Shown piece by piece: positions 38,406-48,806 of a stretch of 64,000 nucleotides of DNA. The stretch is from assembly GCF_001263335.1 (NCBI RefSeq), contig NZ_LGVW01000013.1, positions 1-64,000 on the forward strand. The letters run 5' to 3'. Source of the stretch: Dichelobacter nodosus. Lineage in GTDB: Bacteria > Pseudomonadota > Gammaproteobacteria > Cardiobacteriales > Cardiobacteriaceae. The notes under the pieces were generated by a model. It saw nothing but the letters and a program-made list of their open reading frames with translations, was not told the origin of the DNA and searched no databases. A program made the position numbers and the translations under genes. Position 1 is the stretch's first letter, and every line of letters begins with the position of its first letter.

Positions 38406-38589
38406 TTTTTTCAGCGGTTAATAATGCAATTGCTTCGCTGTGTTCGGGCAATAACAACGCGATGCCGTCAACAATGGGATAACGCCGACTGTGGTCTAAC
38501 GTGTATAAACAATTTTCGGCGCGTTCAAAACGCAGCGCCTGCCCCGTAACAGGGCAGCGCAGCAGCGAAACGGTGGCTTCATCAAACAT
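38395..38589 (-). CDS. Trm112/YcaR-family small protein
   Basis: 64 residues from the ATG at 38589 after GGGAGAAAATC. E. coli YcaR is of similar size and lies beside kdsB too. The fold-typical LLRCPVTGQAL, NCLYTLDHSRRYPIVDGIALLLPE is recognisable. The usual first zinc knuckle C-P-x-C is C-P-V-T, so one ligand cysteine is missing; a later Cys is present. It overlaps the end of the rne-tal fusion by 8 bases and kdsB by 11. Confidence 0.8.
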   Translation of the reverse strand: MFDEATVSLLRCPVTGQALRFERAENCLYTLDHSRRYPIVDGIALLLPEHSEAIALLTAEKNDA

Positions 38590-41500
38590 GATTTTCTCCC
38601 GTGATATCGTTGGCATGCGGTTTTAACGTTTGGATTTTATCCGTTAACGTTTGTAATAATTCAGTAAATGCGCGTTCAAATTGAGCAATGCCATCAAGCG
38701 TTAATTGGCGCGTAACGGCATCTAAATCAATGCCAGCATCTTCAATATTGCGTAACGTTTGTTGCGCTTGTTCAATATTTTTCAATAAAGTAGCGCTGAC
38801 GCGTCCGTGATCTTTAAATGCGGCATACGTTTCCGGCGGAACGGTGTTTACCGTATCGGCGCCGATGAGCATATCAATGTAACGCGTATCAGCGTAATTT
38901 GGATTTTTGGTGCTGGTTGATGCCCACAATAAACGTTGCACCGCGGCGCCTTTTTGTTGCAATTCAATCCAATCATCGTGGCTGATGCGTTCCAAATAAT
39001 AAAGATACGCCGCCTGTGCATTGGCAACCGCCGTGCGTCCGCGCAAATGAGCGTGCGCATCATCGAGCAACGCATCGATTGCCGTATCCACGCGGCTGAC
39101 AAAAAAGCTTGCCACCGAACGAATGCTATCAATCGTTTGACCGTTTTCAACGCGCCGTTTCAAACCGTCAATATACGCTTCCAAAACGCGCTGATATTGC
39201 GCCAGTGAAAAAAGTAAAGTCATATTGACGTTAATGCCTTGTGCGGTCAGTTCCGTTAATGCCGCACAACCGGCATCGGTGGCAGGAATTTTAATCATGA
39301 GATTTTGCCGCGCGACGCGTTGTTGTAATGATAACGCTTCCGCAACCGTTGCCGGCGCATCGTGCGCTAAATGCGGCGAAACTTCCAAAGAAACCATGCC
39401 ATCGGTGCCGTTGGTTTTTTCAAAAACCGGCTGCATCAGATCGCAAGCTTGTTGAATATCTTCAATCGCCAACGCATAAAATGCCGCTTGCGCGTCGCCT
39501 TCATGATGTTCTAACCATGCGCTTAATGCGGCATCGTAATCACGAGTACGGCTAAACGCTTTTTGGAAAATCGCAGGATTTGACGTGATGCCGCGCAAAT
39601 CGTCTTCCTCAATTAAACGTTGCAACGTACCGCTTTGTAATAACGCGCGATCGATATTGTCATACCAAATACTTTGTCCCAATTTAGTAACCGCATGAAT
39701 ATGAGAGACTTTCTCCGACGCGGTTTCGGCAACCGTTTTTTGTTCTTTTTCCGCCGGCGCGGTTTCGGCAACGCTTTCTTGCTCTTTTTCCGCCGGCGCG
39801 ATTTCCGCAACGCTTTCTTGCTCTTTTTTCACTGGCACCGGCAACGGTTCTCCAATCGTTTCTTGTTCTTTTTCCGATAACGCTGTTTCTAAAATTTCCG
39901 CTTGTTCTGACGATGCATCATCGTGTTCCTGCATAGATTGCGGCTCATCGATATCATCTTCATCAGCGCTAATTGGTGCATTTTCAGTTTCTAAAAAAGC
40001 AACTAATCCCGGCGCTTGATGCACTTTCGGCGGCACAAGCGTTGCATTATTTTCCGTTAAAACGGTTTCAGCGTTCACTTCCGGCGATTTGTTATCAGAA
40101 ATGCGTTCATTTTTAACATCATGATGCGCGACGGTTTCAGTTCGTTTAAGTTCATCGCTTGATTGCTCAAAATCTGGCATCGTTTCCGGCGCTTTACCTT
40201 GCCCACGCACCGCGTGCACATCGCGCGGACGTCCTTTGCGCACTTCGCGACCATTTTTTGATTCAACGGGGTGCAGCAATTCTTCCAAACTGGGATTGAC
40301 TTCATCATCATTTTCCATTTTTGCCGCTTTGGGCGTGGGTTTTGCATGATGTTTGTCGTGATCGTCGCTTTTTTCTTTACGTTTAACGTTGGCGCCGTTT
40401 GCGGGCGTTGACTCATGCGTTTGAACGGTTGACGCTTCGGGCGCCGGCGTAACAATGGGTTTTTCACGCACCGGTTGCGCGGTTTCTTCGTGATGAACGT
40501 TTTTGGACGTGGGCGTTACAGATTCGTTAATCGTTTGTTTTTCTTCTTTTTTATGCAATACTGCGTCAACCGTATGACCGTTATGACCTTCTTTGAATAA
40601 CGCCACCACTTTCGAAAATAAAGCCGATAAACCAGATTTAACAACCGCGGCGCCCCCTTTTGCTTGCGGAACCGGCGTTTGCGGCATAATGCTGGAAACC
40701 ACCGGCGCTTCTACGCGGTCATCTTTCGGGCGCAAAATCGGCATTTCTTCGCTATTGTGCTGATGATTAACCAATCGATAACTGGGCACCGCGCTCATTT
40801 CTTCATTCATTTCATCATCGCGAAAGCGCTCAATGAAATAATCGGGAGAATGTAAATGTGGATTAATCGTCAACACGATATCAACGTGATTTCTCTTTTC
40901 AATTGATTGAATTACTGAACGTTTTTCATTTAATAAAAAGGTGGCAATATCAACCGGCAATTCGCCAGTAATTCGGCGCGTGCGATCTTTCATCGCTTCT
41001 TCTTCAATCAAACGCAACAGCGATAACGCCTGCGATTGAATGCCGCGAATACTGCCCTGCCCTTTGCAGCGCGGGCATACTTGATGACTGGCTTCATCAA
41101 TTGAAGCGCGCAATCGTTGCCGCGACATTTCCAATAAACCAAAACGCGAAATTCGTCCAATTTGAATGCGCGCGCGGTCAATTTTGGTCGCATCGATTAA
41201 ACGTTGTTCAACATCTTTGCGGTTGCGGCTAACGTCCATATCAATAAAATCAATGACGATTAATCCGCCAAAATCGCGCAATCGCATTTGACGCGCAATT
41301 TCATCAGCAGCTTCCAAGTTGGTTTGATACGCAGTTTCTTCAATATCGCAGCCTTTCGTAGATTTTGAAGAGTTAATATCGATAGAAACCAGCGCTTCCG
41401 TATAATCAATAACCAATTCGCCACCAGACGGCAATTTCACATTGCGCTGATAAGCCGTTTCAATTTGTCCTTCGATTTGATAGCGCGTAAACAGCGGCGT

Positions 41501-42283
41501 TGGATCTTGATAAAGCTTTAGTTTATTAATGCTACTGGGCATGACTAAATTCATGAAATCCATCGCTTGTTGATAGACTTGTTCGTCGTCAATCAAAATT
41601 TGCCCAACGTCCGGACGCAAATAATCGCGCAGCGCGCGCACAATAATATTGCTTTCTTGATAAATTAATTTTTGGCTAGCAGTGTTGTGATAAGCGGCGG
41701 TGATGGCGTCCCAAACTTGTCTTAAAAAATCCAAATCCCATTGCAATTCTTCTATTGAACGCCCCACGCCCGCGGTGCGGATAATGACGCCCATTTCTTC
41801 CGGCACGCCGAGTTGTTCTAAATAATCTTTTAATTCTTTGCGTTCATCGCCTTGAATGCGCCGCGAAACGCCGCCAGCATGCGGATTATTTGGCATCAAT
41901 ACCAAAAAACGTCCCGCTAAACTAACGTAAGTTGTCAGCGCCGCGCCTTTATTGCCGCGCTCTTCTTTTTCAATTTGAACCAGCACTTTTTGCCCGACGG
42001 AAAGCAAATCTTTAATATTGCTTTTATCGACGCCGTCATGCGATTCTGCCAGATATTCTTTGGCAATTTCTTTAAAGGGTAAAAATCCGTGCCGCGTGCT
42101 GCCGTAATCGACAAAAACGGCTTCGAGAGAAGGTTCGATGCGGGTGATGGTTCCCGTATAAATATTGGCTTTTTTTTGGGCTGAATACAGTGTTTCGATA
42201 TCGAGATCGTATAATTGCTGACCATCGACAAGCGCAACGCGCAACTCTTCTTGTTGGGTTGCATTGATGAGCATTCTTTTCAT
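38582..42283 (-). CDS. rne-tal: Ribonuclease E fused in frame to transaldolase
   Basis: 1,233 residues from the ATG at 42283, where the protein opens exactly like E. coli RNase E (MKRMLINATQQEELRVALVD). Residues 1-510 are the RNase E catalytic core: S1 domain, metal-binding aspartates in VSIDIN (about 300) and IDFIDMD (about 345), and the Zn-link CPRCKGQG (about 403-406). An amphipathic helix near 545-562 (KSGLSALFSKVVALFKE) resembles the membrane-targeting segment. A charged linker with 13-residue repeats leads, without an in-frame ATG at the junction, to a complete transaldolase at about 866-1225: LGQSIWYDNIDR, TSNPAIF, Schiff-base lysine K998 in LMIKIPATDAG, INVNMTLLFS and STSTKNPNY. Transaldolase moves a three-carbon unit in the pentose-phosphate pathway. 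The gene heads a seven-gene operon. Confidence 0.93.
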   Translation of the reverse strand: MKRMLINATQQEELRVALVDGQQLYDLDIETLYSAQKKANIYTGTITRIEPSLEAVFVDYGSTRHGFLPFKEIAKEYLAESHDGVDKSNIKDLLSVGQKVLVQIEKEERGNKGAALTTYVSLAGRFLVLMPNNPHAGGVSRRIQGDERKELKDYLEQLGVPEEMGVIIRTAGVGRSIEELQWDLDFLRQVWDAITAAYHNTASQKLIYQESNIIVRALRDYLRPDVGQILIDDEQVYQQAMDFMNLVMPSSINKLKLYQDPTPLFTRYQIEGQIETAYQRNVKLPSGGELVIDYTEALVSIDINSSKSTKGCDIEETAYQTNLEAADEIARQMRLRDFGGLIVIDFIDMDVSRNRKDVEQRLIDATKIDRARIQIGRISRFGLLEMSRQRLRASIDEASHQVCPRCKGQGSIRGIQSQALSLLRLIEEEAMKDRTRRITGELPVDIATFLLNEKRSVIQSIEKRNHVDIVLTINPHLHSPDYFIERFRDDEMNEEMSAVPSYRLVNHQHNSEEMPILRPKDDRVEAPVVSSIMPQTPVPQAKGGAAVVKSGLSALFSKVVALFKEGHNGHTVDAVLHKKEEKQTINESVTPTSKNVHHEETAQPVREKPIVTPAPEASTVQTHESTPANGANVKRKEKSDDHDKHHAKPTPKAAKMENDDEVNPSLEELLHPVESKNGREVRKGRPRDVHAVRGQGKAPETMPDFEQSSDELKRTETVAHHDVKNERISDNKSPEVNAETVLTENNATLVPPKVHQAPGLVAFLETENAPISADEDDIDEPQSMQEHDDASSEQAEILETALSEKEQETIGEPLPVPVKKEQESVAEIAPAEKEQESVAETAPAEKEQKTVAETASEKVSHIHAVTKLGQSIWYDNIDRALLQSGTLQRLIEEDDLRGITSNPAIFQKAFSRTRDYDAALSAWLEHHEGDAQAAFYALAIEDIQQACDLMQPVFEKTNGTDGMVSLEVSPHLAHDAPATVAEALSLQQRVARQNLMIKIPATDAGCAALTELTAQGINVNMTLLFSLAQYQRVLEAYIDGLKRRVENGQTIDSIRSVASFFVSRVDTAIDALLDDAHAHLRGRTAVANAQAAYLYYLERISHDDWIELQQKGAAVQRLLWASTSTKNPNYADTRYIDMLIGADTVNTVPPETYAAFKDHGRVSATLLKNIEQAQQTLRNIEDAGIDLDAVTRQLTLDGIAQFERAFTELLQTLTDKIQTLKPHANDITGENHV
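39710..39835 (-). repeat. 39-bp tandem repeats in the rne-tal linker
   Basis: Three near-identical 39-bp units encode KEQESVAEIAPAE, KEQESVAETAPAE and KEQKTVAETASEK, directly before the transaldolase domain. Strongly charged and probably extended or helical; likely to vary in copy number. Confidence 0.8.
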
Positions 42284-42650
42284 TATGATTATGTCTCCAA
42301 TTGTCTGCCGCGATGCATTGTGAACACGCAAGTGCAGACTTCTGATTTTTGAAGGTTAGAAAAAAGATGTTGATGCCGGAGACGAAACGCCCGACGATCA
42401 ACATCAGAAAAAATATGGGTATAGTGAAACTTATTGCGTTCACGAAACTATCCGATTGGGAACTCGAAAAATGAGGCAAAACTATAACAATTTACACCTA
42501 AGCGCGCAATCTCAGCGCCACTTCTGCAGCAAACGCAGCGCAACATGGTAAACTAAATTCGCCTTTGTATTTTTTCTAAAAAAATCTGTTTATAAACAAG
42601 GATTCGCTTCTTTTTCTTTTCATTGCGATTTCAAAATTAGAGTCAAAATT
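42284..42650. promoter_or_regulatory. Divergent zapD/rne region with structured rne leader
   Basis: 367 bp without a gene. On the minus strand, reading toward rne, there is a long hairpin with outer stem GATGTTGAT/ATCAACATC (42366-42405) followed by TTTTTTC, then a second stem GTCTGC/GCAGAC (42303-42339), and a GGAG 11 bases before the rne ATG. In E. coli the rne leader is long and contains hairpins through which RNase E represses its own mRNA, so these are candidates for the same role. The first one also looks like a terminator. The right part should hold the zapD promoter. Confidence 0.55.
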
Positions 42651-43487: not shown

Positions 43488-43862
43488 TTAATAACCGTAA
43501 CCGCCGCCGTAATTTTGTTGATAACCGTTTTGCGGATATTGGTTATAACCATTTTGTTGGGGATATTGATTGTAATTTTGTTGCGGATAATTTTGTTGAT
43601 AACCATTTTGCGGATATTGATTATATTGCGGCGCTTGATTTGCGCGATTGATTTGCGAACCCAAAATACCGCCAACAACGGCGCCAGTTGCAATCTTTTT
43701 ATTGCGTTTGCCCGCGGCATCATCTTTGCCCAATAAAGCACCAGCGCCCGCGCCGACAGCCGCGCCAATTGCGCCTTGTTGCACCATTTGTTGCTGACTG
43801 GCGTCCATACAAGCGCTCATCAATAAAGCGGCGCTTAAAAGTGATAATTGTGCGTATTTCAT
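43488..43862 (-). CDS. Glycine-zipper outer-membrane lipoprotein with Gln/Asn/Tyr-rich tail
   Basis: 124 residues after AAAAGGAATTACCG. The signal peptide ends in a lipobox (ALLMSAC, Cys18), so the mature protein should be lipid-anchored. A glycine-zipper segment follows (AIGAAVGAGAGALLG and ATGAVVGGILGSQ), as in 17-kDa surface antigen/SlyB-type proteins. The last third is low-complexity, built on PQNGYQQNY and NQYPQ repeats and ending GGGYGY. The repeats make this tail prone to length change. Role unknown; probably envelope stress or membrane integrity by family analogy. Confidence 0.8.
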   Translation of the reverse strand: MKYAQLSLLSAALLMSACMDASQQQMVQQGAIGAAVGAGAGALLGKDDAAGKRNKKIATGAVVGGILGSQINRANQAPQYNQYPQNGYQQNYPQQNYNQYPQQNGYNQYPQNGYQQNYGGGYGY

Positions 43863-44006: not shown

Positions 44007-44924
44007 ATGTCTACTTTACGCATCGCAACCCGAAAAAGTCCCCTCGCTTTATGGCAAGCCGAACACGTCGCCCAACAATTAAAGCAACATTATCCCGAAT
44101 TAACCGTGGAGCTCGTTCCCATCGTCACGCAGGGCGATATTTTAGCGCATACGCCGTTATCAAAAATTGGCGGTAAAAACTTATTCATCAAAGAATTAGA
44201 AATCGCGATGCAACAAAACGCTGCCGATATTGCCGTGCATTCCATGAAAGATGTTGGCGTGACTTTGCCGGAAGGTTTTGTGCTCGCTGCGATTTTGCCG
44301 CGGGAAAATCCTTTTGATGCGCTGGTGAGCAATCATTATGCCCATTTAAACGAACTCCCTAACGGCGCCCGCGTGGGTACGTGTAGTTTACGGCGCAAAA
44401 TGCAACTCGCGCACTATCGTCCCGATTTAAAACTCATCGATATTCGCGGTAACGTTCACACGCGGCTACAAAAACTGGATTCCGGCGCGTTTGATGCGCT
44501 GATTTTAGCCTGCGCGGGGCTGATTCGTTTACAACAAAACGCGCGCATTCGGCAAATTTTGCCGGCGGAAATTTCGTTGCCGGCAATTGGACAAGGCGCA
44601 ATTGGCGTTGAATGTCGGGCGGATAGCCCATTTTTAGCGCATATTCAAACTTTAAATCATTTTGAAACTGCCGTTTGCGTTCAAACCGAGCGCGTCGTTA
44701 ATCAACGTTTGCAAGGTGATTGCCAAGTGCCGATCGCGGTTTTTGCCACACTTTCCGGCAAAACGATGACCTTACAAAGTCGTATCGGCACAATTGACGG
44801 ACAGCGTATGCTGGCACATCAAGAAATTTGTGCGTTGGAAGATGCGGAAAAAGCCGGCGCACGTTGTGCAGAAGCATTGATCCAACAAGGCGCGCAGGAT
44901 ATTTTGCATGAATACAGAAAATAA
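44007..44924 (+). CDS. hemC: Porphobilinogen deaminase (hydroxymethylbilane synthase)
   Basis: 305 residues from the ATG at 44007, which gives the usual MSTLRIATRKSPLALWQAEHV opening; an in-frame start at 43884 adds an implausible leader. HemC joins four porphobilinogens into hydroxymethylbilane. The dipyrromethane cofactor cysteine lies in LQGDCQVPIAVFA. VHSMKDVGVTLPEGF, GTCSLRRKMQL and IDIRGNVHTRLQKL are conserved. The ribosome site is weak. It overlaps hemD by 17 bases and opens the hemCDXY operon. Confidence 0.95.
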   Translation: MSTLRIATRKSPLALWQAEHVAQQLKQHYPELTVELVPIVTQGDILAHTPLSKIGGKNLFIKELEIAMQQNAADIAVHSMKDVGVTLPEGFVLAAILPRENPFDALVSNHYAHLNELPNGARVGTCSLRRKMQLAHYRPDLKLIDIRGNVHTRLQKLDSGAFDALILACAGLIRLQQNARIRQILPAEISLPAIGQGAIGVECRADSPFLAHIQTLNHFETAVCVQTERVVNQRLQGDCQVPIAVFATLSGKTMTLQSRIGTIDGQRMLAHQEICALEDAEKAGARCAEALIQQGAQDILHEYRK

Positions 44925-45663
44925 ATATCCGCTGCAAGGTTGCCGTATTTTGTATACGCGCAGTAAACAGCATTGGTTGCAAGCAGAACCTTTATTACGG
45001 CAATTAGGCGCGCAACCGTATCATTTGCCGCTTTTGGATACGAAAATGCAGCCGTTATCCGCAAAAGCGCTGGAACAATGCCGAAAAGCAGATGATTTGG
45101 TATTTGTCAGCGCGCAGGCAGTGCAGCATTTTTTAGCGCAATATCAACCCGTTTTTCAACAAAACCTTATCGCCATCGGCATGAAAACGGCAGACGCTTT
45201 AACGGCGCACGCGCAAACGCGTTTTTTAGTCGCACCGCCGCCGTATAATTCGGAAGCGTTATTGCGCATTTGGCAACCGCAGCGGCATAAAATCGCGCTG
45301 ATTGCCGCTGAAGGCGGTCGGGATTTGTTATACACCACTTTATCTGAAGATAATGAGGTTTATCGGATTGACACTTATCAGCGCTTTAATCCCACGCACG
45401 CGTGGAATTTTGAAATGCCGTTGCCGCATTGTATTTTGTTGGCGAGCGTACAAACTTTAGCGCATTTCCTCGCAATCACGCCGCAAAATATGCTAAAACT
45501 GTTACAATGCCGTGCGGTGATTGTCGCGTTAAGCCCGAGAATTATGCAAGCCGCTGTGCATGCGGGATTTTTGCACTGTATCAGCGCACAATATGCCGAC
45601 GAAAGACATTTAATTAGTTGCCTAGAACAATGGTGGCTATCGACACAAGGAGACTCATCATGA
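44908..45663 (+). CDS. hemD: Uroporphyrinogen-III synthase
   Basis: 251 residues. HemD closes hydroxymethylbilane with inversion of ring D. The family is poorly conserved; supporting text is LQGCRILYTRSKQHWLQAEPLL (read as two parts), DDLVFVSAQAVQHFL, IALIAAEGGRDLLYTTL and VYRIDTYQRFNP, plus its place between hemC and hemX. Its stop overlaps the hemX start as ATGA. Confidence 0.88.
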   Translation: MNTENKYPLQGCRILYTRSKQHWLQAEPLLRQLGAQPYHLPLLDTKMQPLSAKALEQCRKADDLVFVSAQAVQHFLAQYQPVFQQNLIAIGMKTADALTAHAQTRFLVAPPPYNSEALLRIWQPQRHKIALIAAEGGRDLLYTTLSEDNEVYRIDTYQRFNPTHAWNFEMPLPHCILLASVQTLAHFLAITPQNMLKLLQCRAVIVALSPRIMQAAVHAGFLHCISAQYADERHLISCLEQWWLSTQGDSS

Positions 45664-47414
45664 ACGACCCCAATAAACCGTCTGCAGAACATTTAAACGA
45701 GAATATTTTATCGACGGATAACGCATTACAATCAACTGAAAATAATCCACAACCGCATGATAAAAAAGAAAAAGATTGCGACTGTCACGGCGAACACGCC
45801 TGCGATTGCGACGAAGAAAAAGATTGCGGTTGTCACAGCGAACATGCCTGTGATTGCAATGAAGAAAAAGATAAAGATTGCAACTGTGGAGACTCCTGCG
45901 ATTGCGATGAAGAAAACAACTGCGGTTGCATCGACAAACATGCCTGTGATTGCAATGAAGAAAAAGATAAAGATTGTAGTTGTGGAGATTCCTGCGATTG
46001 CAATGAAGAAAACAACTGTGGTTGCGTCGGCGAACATGCTTGTGATTGCAATGAAGAAAAAGATAAAGATTGTAGTTGTGGAGATTCCTGCGATTGCGAT
46101 GAAGAAAATAACTGCGGTTGCATCGGCGAACATGCTTGTGATTGCAATGAAGAAAAAGATAAAGATTGTAGTTGTGGAGATTCCTGCGATTGCGATGAAG
46201 AAAATAACTGCGGTTGCATCGGCGAATCTTCAAAAAAGAAGGGACCTTGTGCTTTCCTCACTTTTTTGCTCGCTTTTTTAGCTTTAGCTGCGGCAGGCTA
46301 TCATGAATATCAATGGCAACAAATGCGCGCGAATCAGCAAACATTCCAAAGTGATAGTGAAAAAAACATTGATGCATTAAAAAATACGGTTGCGCAATTC
46401 GATCAAGGTCTTGATAAAGCACAAGTCAGCCATTTGATTGCCGAAGCGATAAAAGCGTTGCCGCTTCCGCCGTCTGAACAAGAAATCGGTGTGTTCGTTG
46501 AACAAAAAATGAAAGAACAAGCAGAACATACCATCAAACAAGCACATTCCGTTGCGCAAGAATCCGTTGCCGAATTTGCGCGGACGCATGATTTAAACGA
46601 TATCCGCGCTACGCAAGCAAGCACAGAAGCGAAAGTTCAAGAAGCAGTTGATGCTTTTCAACATACCGCAACCACAGCAAAAGAATCGTTTACCGCGCTG
46701 GCAGATCAAGCAACAAAGCAATTTACAAATTTAACGCAACAAGCCCACCCACAACCGTTAATCGATGCTTTAGCCTTGGCTGATGCAGCCTATCAACACA
46801 ATGATTATTTTGCTGCGGCGCAATTTTTAAATCAGGCACTTTATCGCTTTGAAGCGCTCAATTTAATGCAAACACCTTTTGCCGCTTTTAAAGAACCGAT
46901 TACCGCCGCACAAACGCAGCTCGCCAGTCTCATCAAAGCGGATCAAGAGCGCGCGCAACAATTGATCGCGTTGACCGAATCGGTAGATTCATGGTCTTTT
47001 AAAAGTTTTGAACCCGTGCAAGTAACGATGGAAGATGAAGCGTCAGATGAAACTAATTTGATGTCTCAAGCAGAACAATGGGGAAAACAGCTTTTAAGCA
47101 AAGCAGTGGTTATTCATAAAAATGATTTATCAGCAGCCGAACGCGTGCCGGCGAATAAAGCGCAAAGAGCCATTATTCGCGAAACCATTCGTTTAGATGT
47201 GGCTTATTTACGAAATGCCGCGATGCTTCATGATCGCGTGGGAGCAAAAATGGCAGCTGATGATTTAACGGCGCTGATAACGCGCTATTTTGCTGCCAAC
47301 GATGAAGCGGTACAATCTGCATTGAGTGTTTTATCTCAATTTGGGGCAGATGAGCCGCAACCCCTTGAAATTACAACCATCATTAAAGCGGTTAAAGAAG
47401 CCGCGGGAGAATAG
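45660..47414 (+). CDS. hemX: HemX-like membrane protein with an N-terminal 38-cysteine CxC-repeat domain
   Basis: 584 residues from the ATG at 45660 after GGAGACTC. The C-terminal part after one transmembrane helix (about 197-217, preceded by SSKKKG) matches HemX: a long coiled coil (about 220-360) and the helical domain ending in ITTIIKAVKEAAGE. HemX is an inner-membrane protein of the heme operon with unclear function. The surprise is residues 40-186: 19 C-x-C pairs, 38 cysteines, in four 32-residue repeats (units like CDCNEEKDKDCSCGDSCDC) plus a shorter leading unit, with Asp/Glu and one His per unit. By the positive-inside rule this acidic, metallothionein-like domain faces the cytosol. 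Ordinary HemX proteins have only a short polar N-terminus. Metal binding is inference. Confidence 0.85.
   Translation: MNDPNKPSAEHLNENILSTDNALQSTENNPQPHDKKEKDCDCHGEHACDCDEEKDCGCHSEHACDCNEEKDKDCNCGDSCDCDEENNCGCIDKHACDCNEEKDKDCSCGDSCDCNEENNCGCVGEHACDCNEEKDKDCSCGDSCDCDEENNCGCIGEHACDCNEEKDKDCSCGDSCDCDEENNCGCIGESSKKKGPCAFLTFLLAFLALAAAGYHEYQWQQMRANQQTFQSDSEKNIDALKNTVAQFDQGLDKAQVSHLIAEAIKALPLPPSEQEIGVFVEQKMKEQAEHTIKQAHSVAQESVAEFARTHDLNDIRATQASTEAKVQEAVDAFQHTATTAKESFTALADQATKQFTNLTQQAHPQPLIDALALADAAYQHNDYFAAAQFLNQALYRFEALNLMQTPFAAFKEPITAAQTQLASLIKADQERAQQLIALTESVDSWSFKSFEPVQVTMEDEASDETNLMSQAEQWGKQLLSKAVVIHKNDLSAAERVPANKAQRAIIRETIRLDVAYLRNAAMLHDRVGAKMAADDLTALITRYFAANDEAVQSALSVLSQFGADEPQPLEITTIIKAVKEAAGE
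45843..46226 (+). repeat. Four 96-bp tandem repeats encoding the HemX cysteine domain
   Basis: Four consecutive 96-bp units (32 codons, eight Cys each) with few differences; the last two are almost identical. A shorter, more diverged unit precedes them. In-phase length means copy-number change keeps the frame. Confidence 0.9.
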
Positions 47415-47416
47415 TT

Positions 47417-48754
47417 ATGTTACGTTTTATTATTGTTTTAATTTTATTATGCCTTGGTTTGTTAACCGGTTATGCGTTTAATATTGAATCGCCGGTGATG
47501 ATTAATATTTTTGGGCGTTATCAAATTGAAACCCATTTTATTAATTTAGTACTCGCTTCCATTTTGTTTGGTTTTTTGTTTATTACTTTGTTTCGTATCC
47601 TTTTTTTCATTTGGAATACGCCGACAATTTTCAGCCGTAATTTAAAAGTTCGCAAGAAAAATAAAGCTGACCGCTTATTGCGCGGTGGTTTAAATGATTT
47701 GGGCGTGGGCAACTATAAATGCGCGGAAAAGAAACTGGCAAACGGCGGCGATTTGGCGGAACAATTGGGCATTTCTCCCGTGATTTATTTTGAAAACGCA
47801 GCGATTGCTGCCGACCGCCAACAAGCGTTTGACCGCCGCGATCAATATTTTATTCGTGCCCGTGAAACAGTTCAGGCGCATGATGCCGTAAGCCGTAAAG
47901 TGATGCGTTTAACAGAAGCGCACAGTTATATTTTGAATCATCAATTTACACAGGCGGAATCGATTTTAAATCAACTTTATCAAGAAGATGCTAAAAATTC
48001 GAAAGTCATTGCAATGCTTGATGAAGTGTATGTGGGTAAAAAAGATTGGGAACGCGCGTGGTTACATTTATCCACTTTGCGCAATCAACTTTCTGCCGAA
48101 GTGTTTAACGAACGCAAGTTAAAATATGCGCAAGAAATGGTGCAAGCTGCTTTGCATGATGAAGAGGCTTTAAGCCGCGTGTGGCAACATTTGCCGGCAG
48201 AATTGCACGCCGAAAAATCATTATTATTGCCTTATGCCAGCGCGTTGCATGAAAAAGGTCACGCGGAAGAAATCGAAAAACTTTTGGCGCAACAAATTAA
48301 ATACAATGGCGATTTGGATTTAATTCAAGTTTACAGCCAATTGCGCGGCATTAATTTCAATCGTGCTTTGAAAAATATGAACGATTGGGCAAGTATGCAT
48401 GCCGAAAACAGCATTTTCCTTTATTGCCATGCGCAAATTGCTTACCGCGCTAAAGATTATGAAACTGCCGCGCGCTGCATCGAAGCTTCTATTAAATTGC
48501 ACCCAACACCGCAAGCGTTTGCTTTGTGGGGACAAATTTTGGAAGCAACGGATAAACCAGGCGCCGCATTTGTTGCATATCGTCAAAGTATTGTTGACCC
48601 GAAAGCCGATTCTTTAAACGGCGAATTATTACTCGCACAAGCCGGCGAAAAACTGGCGTTAGAAAAATTGGCAGCGGAACAAACCGATGACGACGCGGTA
48701 GCAGAAGTCAGCGAAAACGAAGCAGAAAAAACAGAATCATCAACTGATGAATAA
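47417..48754 (+). CDS. hemY: HemY-type heme biosynthesis TPR protein
   Basis: 445 residues, starting 2 bases after hemX with GGGAG inside the hemX end. Two transmembrane helices at about 1-20 and 42-67 are followed by the HemY_N signature (RLLRGGLNDLGVGNYKCAEKKL) and TPR-like helical repeats to about 400, with an acidic tail. This is the proteobacterial HemY of the hemCDXY operon, not the Gram-positive oxidase of the same name. It is thought to act with HemX at the membrane in heme synthesis; the mechanism is not settled. Confidence 0.9.
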   Translation: MLRFIIVLILLCLGLLTGYAFNIESPVMINIFGRYQIETHFINLVLASILFGFLFITLFRILFFIWNTPTIFSRNLKVRKKNKADRLLRGGLNDLGVGNYKCAEKKLANGGDLAEQLGISPVIYFENAAIAADRQQAFDRRDQYFIRARETVQAHDAVSRKVMRLTEAHSYILNHQFTQAESILNQLYQEDAKNSKVIAMLDEVYVGKKDWERAWLHLSTLRNQLSAEVFNERKLKYAQEMVQAALHDEEALSRVWQHLPAELHAEKSLLLPYASALHEKGHAEEIEKLLAQQIKYNGDLDLIQVYSQLRGINFNRALKNMNDWASMHAENSIFLYCHAQIAYRAKDYETAARCIEASIKLHPTPQAFALWGQILEATDKPGAAFVAYRQSIVDPKADSLNGELLLAQAGEKLALEKLAAEQTDDDAVAEVSENEAEKTESSTDE

Positions 48755-48769
48755 CTGCTTTTCGCGCTG

Positions 48770-48806
48770 GACGCAATCCCATTTGTGGATTGCGTCTTTT
48801 TTATTT
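48770..48806 (+). terminator. Terminator of hemCDXY
   Basis: Perfect 10-bp stem GACGCAATCC/GGATTGCGTC followed by TTTTTTATTTT, 16 bases after the hemY stop. Confidence 0.9.

Follow-up and report, generated by a model that had tools for sequence, protein, structure and literature searches.

A cysteine-rich repeat array ahead of the membrane helix of HemX in Dichelobacter nodosus, a possible metal buffer beside heme synthesis

HemX of Dichelobacter nodosus carries, ahead of its single membrane helix, an array of 19 CxC motifs, which is a real, strongly non-random and apparently species-specific elaboration of this heme-operon protein. We put at about one half the probability that this N-terminus acts as a cytosolic, membrane-tethered, metallothionein-like array that buffers soft metals near heme synthesis. 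The function of gammaproteobacterial HemX is apparently unsettled, and a 38-cysteine graft on what is probably its cytosolic side offers a direct handle on it.

HemX within the hemCDXY operon

The window, a 64-kb stretch of D. nodosus DNA taken from a 36-contig draft genome of 1.45 Mb, holds hemX within the gene order hemC-hemD-hemX-hemY on the forward strand. That genome carries an exact match to a dtdA typing primer published for D. nodosus (PMC5876313). The upstream gene of the operon, hemC (44007..44921), encodes porphobilinogen deaminase (Pfam PF01379, E=1.6e-81; PF03900, E=3.3e-13) and is followed by hemD (44908..45663), encoding uroporphyrinogen-III synthase (PF02602, E=6.6e-23), the stop of which overlaps the start of hemX in the sequence ATGA. 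Preceded by the Shine-Dalgarno sequence AAGGAG at 45647..45652, hemX (45660..47414, coding to 47411) runs from an ATG at 45660 to the stop codon at 47412-47414 and yields a protein of 584 amino acids with a cysteine-rich N-terminus. Downstream lie hemY (47417..48754), the TPR protein of heme synthesis (TIGR00540, 176 bits over cut-off; PF07219, E=1.5e-14), and a terminator-like hairpin (48769..48797), a consensus match only, which would mark the operon end 3' of hemY. The operon is conserved across the family: of ten loci in relatives, nine have hemX between hemD and hemY, and the tenth lies on a contig that starts inside hemX.

The sequence-only reading had named this gene hemX of hemCDXY, an identity borne out by its place between hemD and hemY and by its similarity to ten family HemX proteins (best E=1.6e-27; identity 20-25%), on both of which the protein is here taken as HemX. 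The D. nodosus protein has no match over the curated cut-off of the PF04375 (HemX) profile, which is matched by five of the nine proteins in the family alignment; since its own sequence misses the model, it is tied to PF04375 only through its relatives. Like gammaproteobacterial HemX of that family, it is encoded between hemD and hemY and combines one membrane helix with a helical C-terminal region; unlike them, it has the 19-motif CxC array as its N-terminus.

The structure model, the sequence and the alignment with relatives place the single transmembrane helix at about residues 199-221 (46254..46322), with SSKKKGP just before it, and the conserved helical C-terminal HemX region, expected to be periplasmic, at residues 361-583 (46740..47408), where pLDDT is mostly 80-93. 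A single N-terminal helix followed by a helical region, the layout that characterizes HemX, is therefore present in both model and alignment, and the invariant alignment columns all fall within residues 361-583, except M1. By the positive-inside rule, SSKKKGP ahead of the helix points to a cytosolic side for the array, in agreement with the earlier argument from charge. The array itself is unstructured in the model (pLDDT about 30), which would fit a metal-free thiolate chain and, equally, any low-complexity repeat. A fold search with the whole HemX model returned nothing significant, probably because the model is mostly disordered.

Translation starting past the repeats had been named as an observation that could overturn the array, and this is very unlikely. 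Past ATG1, the only in-frame start codons short of the C-terminal region are a TTG at codon 203, within the helix, and an ATG at codon 222, beyond it; because there is none between array and helix, a membrane-anchored HemX necessarily carries the array, and the Shine-Dalgarno sequence ahead of ATG1 is perfect.

The cysteine array and its DNA repeat

The array occupies residues 40-186 (45777..46217), where a recount returned the 38 cysteines and 19 CxC motifs first read there. All cysteines of these 147 residues lie within CxC, with zero CC pairs, and are encoded by 24 TGC and 14 TGT codons, while the 39th cysteine of HemX, residue 197, borders the membrane helix. Successive CxC motifs start 8, 8, 8, 10, 6, 8, 8, 10, 6... 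residues apart, CxC-x5-CxC spacing predominating and a 7/3 alternation occurring once per 32-residue unit. The net charge is about -40 for the array and -42 for the whole pre-helix stretch. Against a cysteine background of 1.15% in the other open reading frames of the window, a 147-residue stretch so rich has a binomial P of about 1e-39. At the array's own composition, 9.5 CxC and 9.6 CC would be expected, compared with 19 and 0 observed, the CxC count being reached in 1/20000 shuffles.

At the DNA level, the in-phase 96-bp repeat noted beforehand was recovered by Tandem Repeats Finder at 45799..46226 on the forward strand, with 4.5 copies and 93% matches; 96 being a multiple of 3, each unit preserves the reading frame. 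The same program found sub-periods of 48 and 24 bp, and the 96-bp unit is built from older 24/48-bp units. A change in copy number between strains is plausible. The four VNTR (MLVA) loci published for D. nodosus typing have no primer within the 64-kb window, so their allele data are inapplicable to the hemX repeat.

Distribution and origin of the array

The nearest relatives were taken as one family, Cardiobacteriaceae, represented by 12 genomes including the source (G000). Eight family HemX proteins, those whose sequence could be followed to the start codon, have no cysteine ahead of the helix; two further, incomplete ones have none in their visible part. The pre-helix N-termini of these relatives are low-complexity, span 26-157 residues and vary in composition and charge, so the array occupies a place where the family tolerates disordered sequence. 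The expectation that an ordinary HemX N-terminus is short and polar was thus only partly right and fails for several close relatives, which have long, low-complexity, cysteine-free N-termini of up to 157 residues. In 70 HemX proteins of other gammaproteobacterial families, the upstream segment holds at most one CxC and at most six cysteines; the search for homologues with cysteine-rich N-termini that had been proposed as a check therefore returned none among the eight readable family proteins and these 70.

Wider searches gave the same picture. With the array as query, 369 gammaproteobacterial genomes contained no match besides that of D. nodosus, and a protein scan of genome contigs from 84,980 species, among which very near genomes may be absent, revealed no related array. 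A second weak match in the source genome (C6, E=0.14) proved to be an ordinary cysteine-containing frame. At the DNA level, the CxC-x5 pattern occurred in at least 117 stretches, nearly all of them simple-sequence repeats; the few genuine-looking CxC proteins among the matches listed (e.g. L098 and L068) were rejected as relatives of the array, not being HemX. Pfam and PDB sequence searches with the array gave no match up to E=10, NCBIfam gave chance-level matches to unrelated adhesin models only, and no literature on D. nodosus hemX was found.

This distribution bears on the serious rival to a selected metal function, near-neutral repeat expansion, in which a dispensable, disordered HemX linker would have been filled by slipped-strand duplication of a CxC-encoding 24-bp unit. 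The freely varying family N-termini, the occurrence of the array in D. nodosus alone among the genomes searched, the 24/48/96-bp hierarchy expected of repeated slippage, and the other linker or tail tandem repeats in the window (39-bp, in an RNase E fusion; 27-bp, at 43521) all agree with such an origin, and growth of a repeat in a tolerated linker would account for much of the anatomy. Against it stands a comparison of five repeat copies codon by codon, in which cysteine columns showed 3 silent and 0 replacement changes versus 4 silent and 10 replacement changes in the other columns (Fisher P=0.05). That all 38 cysteines are kept while neighbouring residues vary favours selection on cysteine, though the events are few. 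Whatever its origin, moreover, a protein with 38 free thiols in the cytosol would be likely to bind metal. Near-neutral expansion is rated as a rather unlikely account, to be taken seriously nonetheless.

Metal buffering and other readings

We infer that, in a metal buffer, the N-terminal 190 residues would work through CxC repeats in an acidic, otherwise disordered chain that folds around bound soft metals, of which Cu(I) and/or Zn(II) are the likeliest, holding them in the reducing cytosol as metallothioneins do. The HemX tether would hold this metal pool beside the heme-synthesis machinery encoded with HemX and HemY, and a plausible benefit would be the shielding of metal-sensitive heme enzymes, HemN from Cu(I) and ferrochelatase from the wrong metal.

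The composition had been described as metallothionein-like, which stands for the high cysteine content in CxC motifs (38/147 residues) but does not extend to family membership, as no metallothionein or other family model, nor any PDB sequence, was matched in the Pfam, NCBIfam and PDB searches. With bacterial SmtA/PmtA and MymT and fungal copper thioneins, the array shares very high cysteine, CxC motifs and the lack of a predicted metal-free fold; it differs in being acidic, much larger and fused to a membrane protein of 584 residues, where a metallothionein would be a small stand-alone protein. To our knowledge, bacterial metallothioneins are small separate proteins, and the constitutive fusion to a heme-operon protein, unlike them, speaks against a metal buffer, as does the lack of any family-model or PDB match. 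The CxC-x5-CxC-x3-CxC spacing recalls a Neurospora-type copper thionein, as a lead only. Metallothioneins fold only upon metal binding, and Csp3, a cytosolic protein, uses many cysteines for Cu(I) storage (PMC7558416). The copper storage proteins Csp1 and Csp3 resemble the array in their many cysteines but are four-helix bundles folded prior to copper, whereas for residues 1-198 no helix is predicted, at a model confidence that is very low there.

The proposed benefit draws on the metal sensitivity of heme synthesis: HemN is inactivated by Cu(I) in vitro, copper-stressed bacteria excrete porphyrins (PMC9576991), and in Rubrivivax HemN is a target of Cd and Cu (PMC7283390). Ferrochelatase is present in the source genome, and the HemN model matches all 12 family genomes, the source included, ten of them over the cut-off, while four of the 12 (G000, the source; G001; G002; G007) gave no match to HemF (PF01218). 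Coproporphyrinogen oxidation in the source thus seems to rely on the radical-SAM enzyme HemN, no HemF having been found beside it. A more specific version of the metal buffer, tentative and on balance improbable, is that repeat expansion gave HemX a metallothionein of its own, a membrane-tethered guard of heme synthesis against Cu or Zn, with a capacity tunable via 96-bp copy number, in an anaerobe for whose coproporphyrinogen step the Fe-S enzyme HemN alone was found. The absence of HemF was rejected as the sole explanation of the array: G001, G002 and G007 have no HemF match and also no array-like match, so HemF absence alone is no predictor of the array. Should the array bind Cu or Zn, and porphyrins accumulate once it is lost, this would locate HemX next to those heme steps that are sensitive to metals. 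Disinfectants in common use against foot rot include heavy metals (PMC9237958); speculatively, a metal-binding array in the agent of this disease of sheep could bear on its treatment.

A role in iron, Fe-S or heme handling, in which the array would serve ferrochelatase or heme export by giving or taking up iron or heme, or form a reservoir for HemN Fe-S repair, would suit a heme-operon gene in a genome with ferrochelatase and HemN, and acidic residues with a few histidines could bind Fe(II). The array nevertheless has no repeats of CxxC, CxxxCxxC or CP heme-regulatory-like motifs, and dense CxC with gaps of 5 or 3 residues typifies thiolate clusters of d10 metals, not Fe-S or heme sites, leaving such a role with a small probability. 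Smaller still is that of a redox sensor or thiol buffer, whose CxC pairs would signal oxygen exposure to the membrane as reversible disulfides: CxC can form disulfides and D. nodosus is an anaerobe at an oxygen-exposed surface, but a repeat of 38 cysteines has a capacity suiting stoichiometric binding more than switching, and no partner module was seen. An artefact, whether from a misplaced start, a misread frame or faulty assembly, for which one might cite the proneness of repeats to misassembly in a 36-contig draft and the long open frames on the opposite strand, is scarcely credible given the perfect Shine-Dalgarno sequence, the ATGA overlap, the conserved operon, the lack of an internal start before the helix and the origin of those opposite frames as by-products of a stop-free repeat, though the copy number may be off by whole units in the draft assembly.

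Two further genes of the window were noted on the reverse strand. The first (43488-43862) encodes a small Gly-zipper lipoprotein-like protein (PF13441), whose degenerate NQYPQ/NGY-rich C-terminal tail lies over the 27-bp tandem repeat. The second (38582-42331) is a frame of 1249 residues in which RNase E (PF10150, PF20833) is joined, through a charged linker with the 39-bp tandem repeat, to a C-terminal transaldolase (PF00923), the sole transaldolase match in the source genome. Most of the 12 family genomes have transaldolase-bearing open frames of 1242-1352 amino acids, so that the joining of an RNA-decay enzyme to one of the pentose pathway is conserved.
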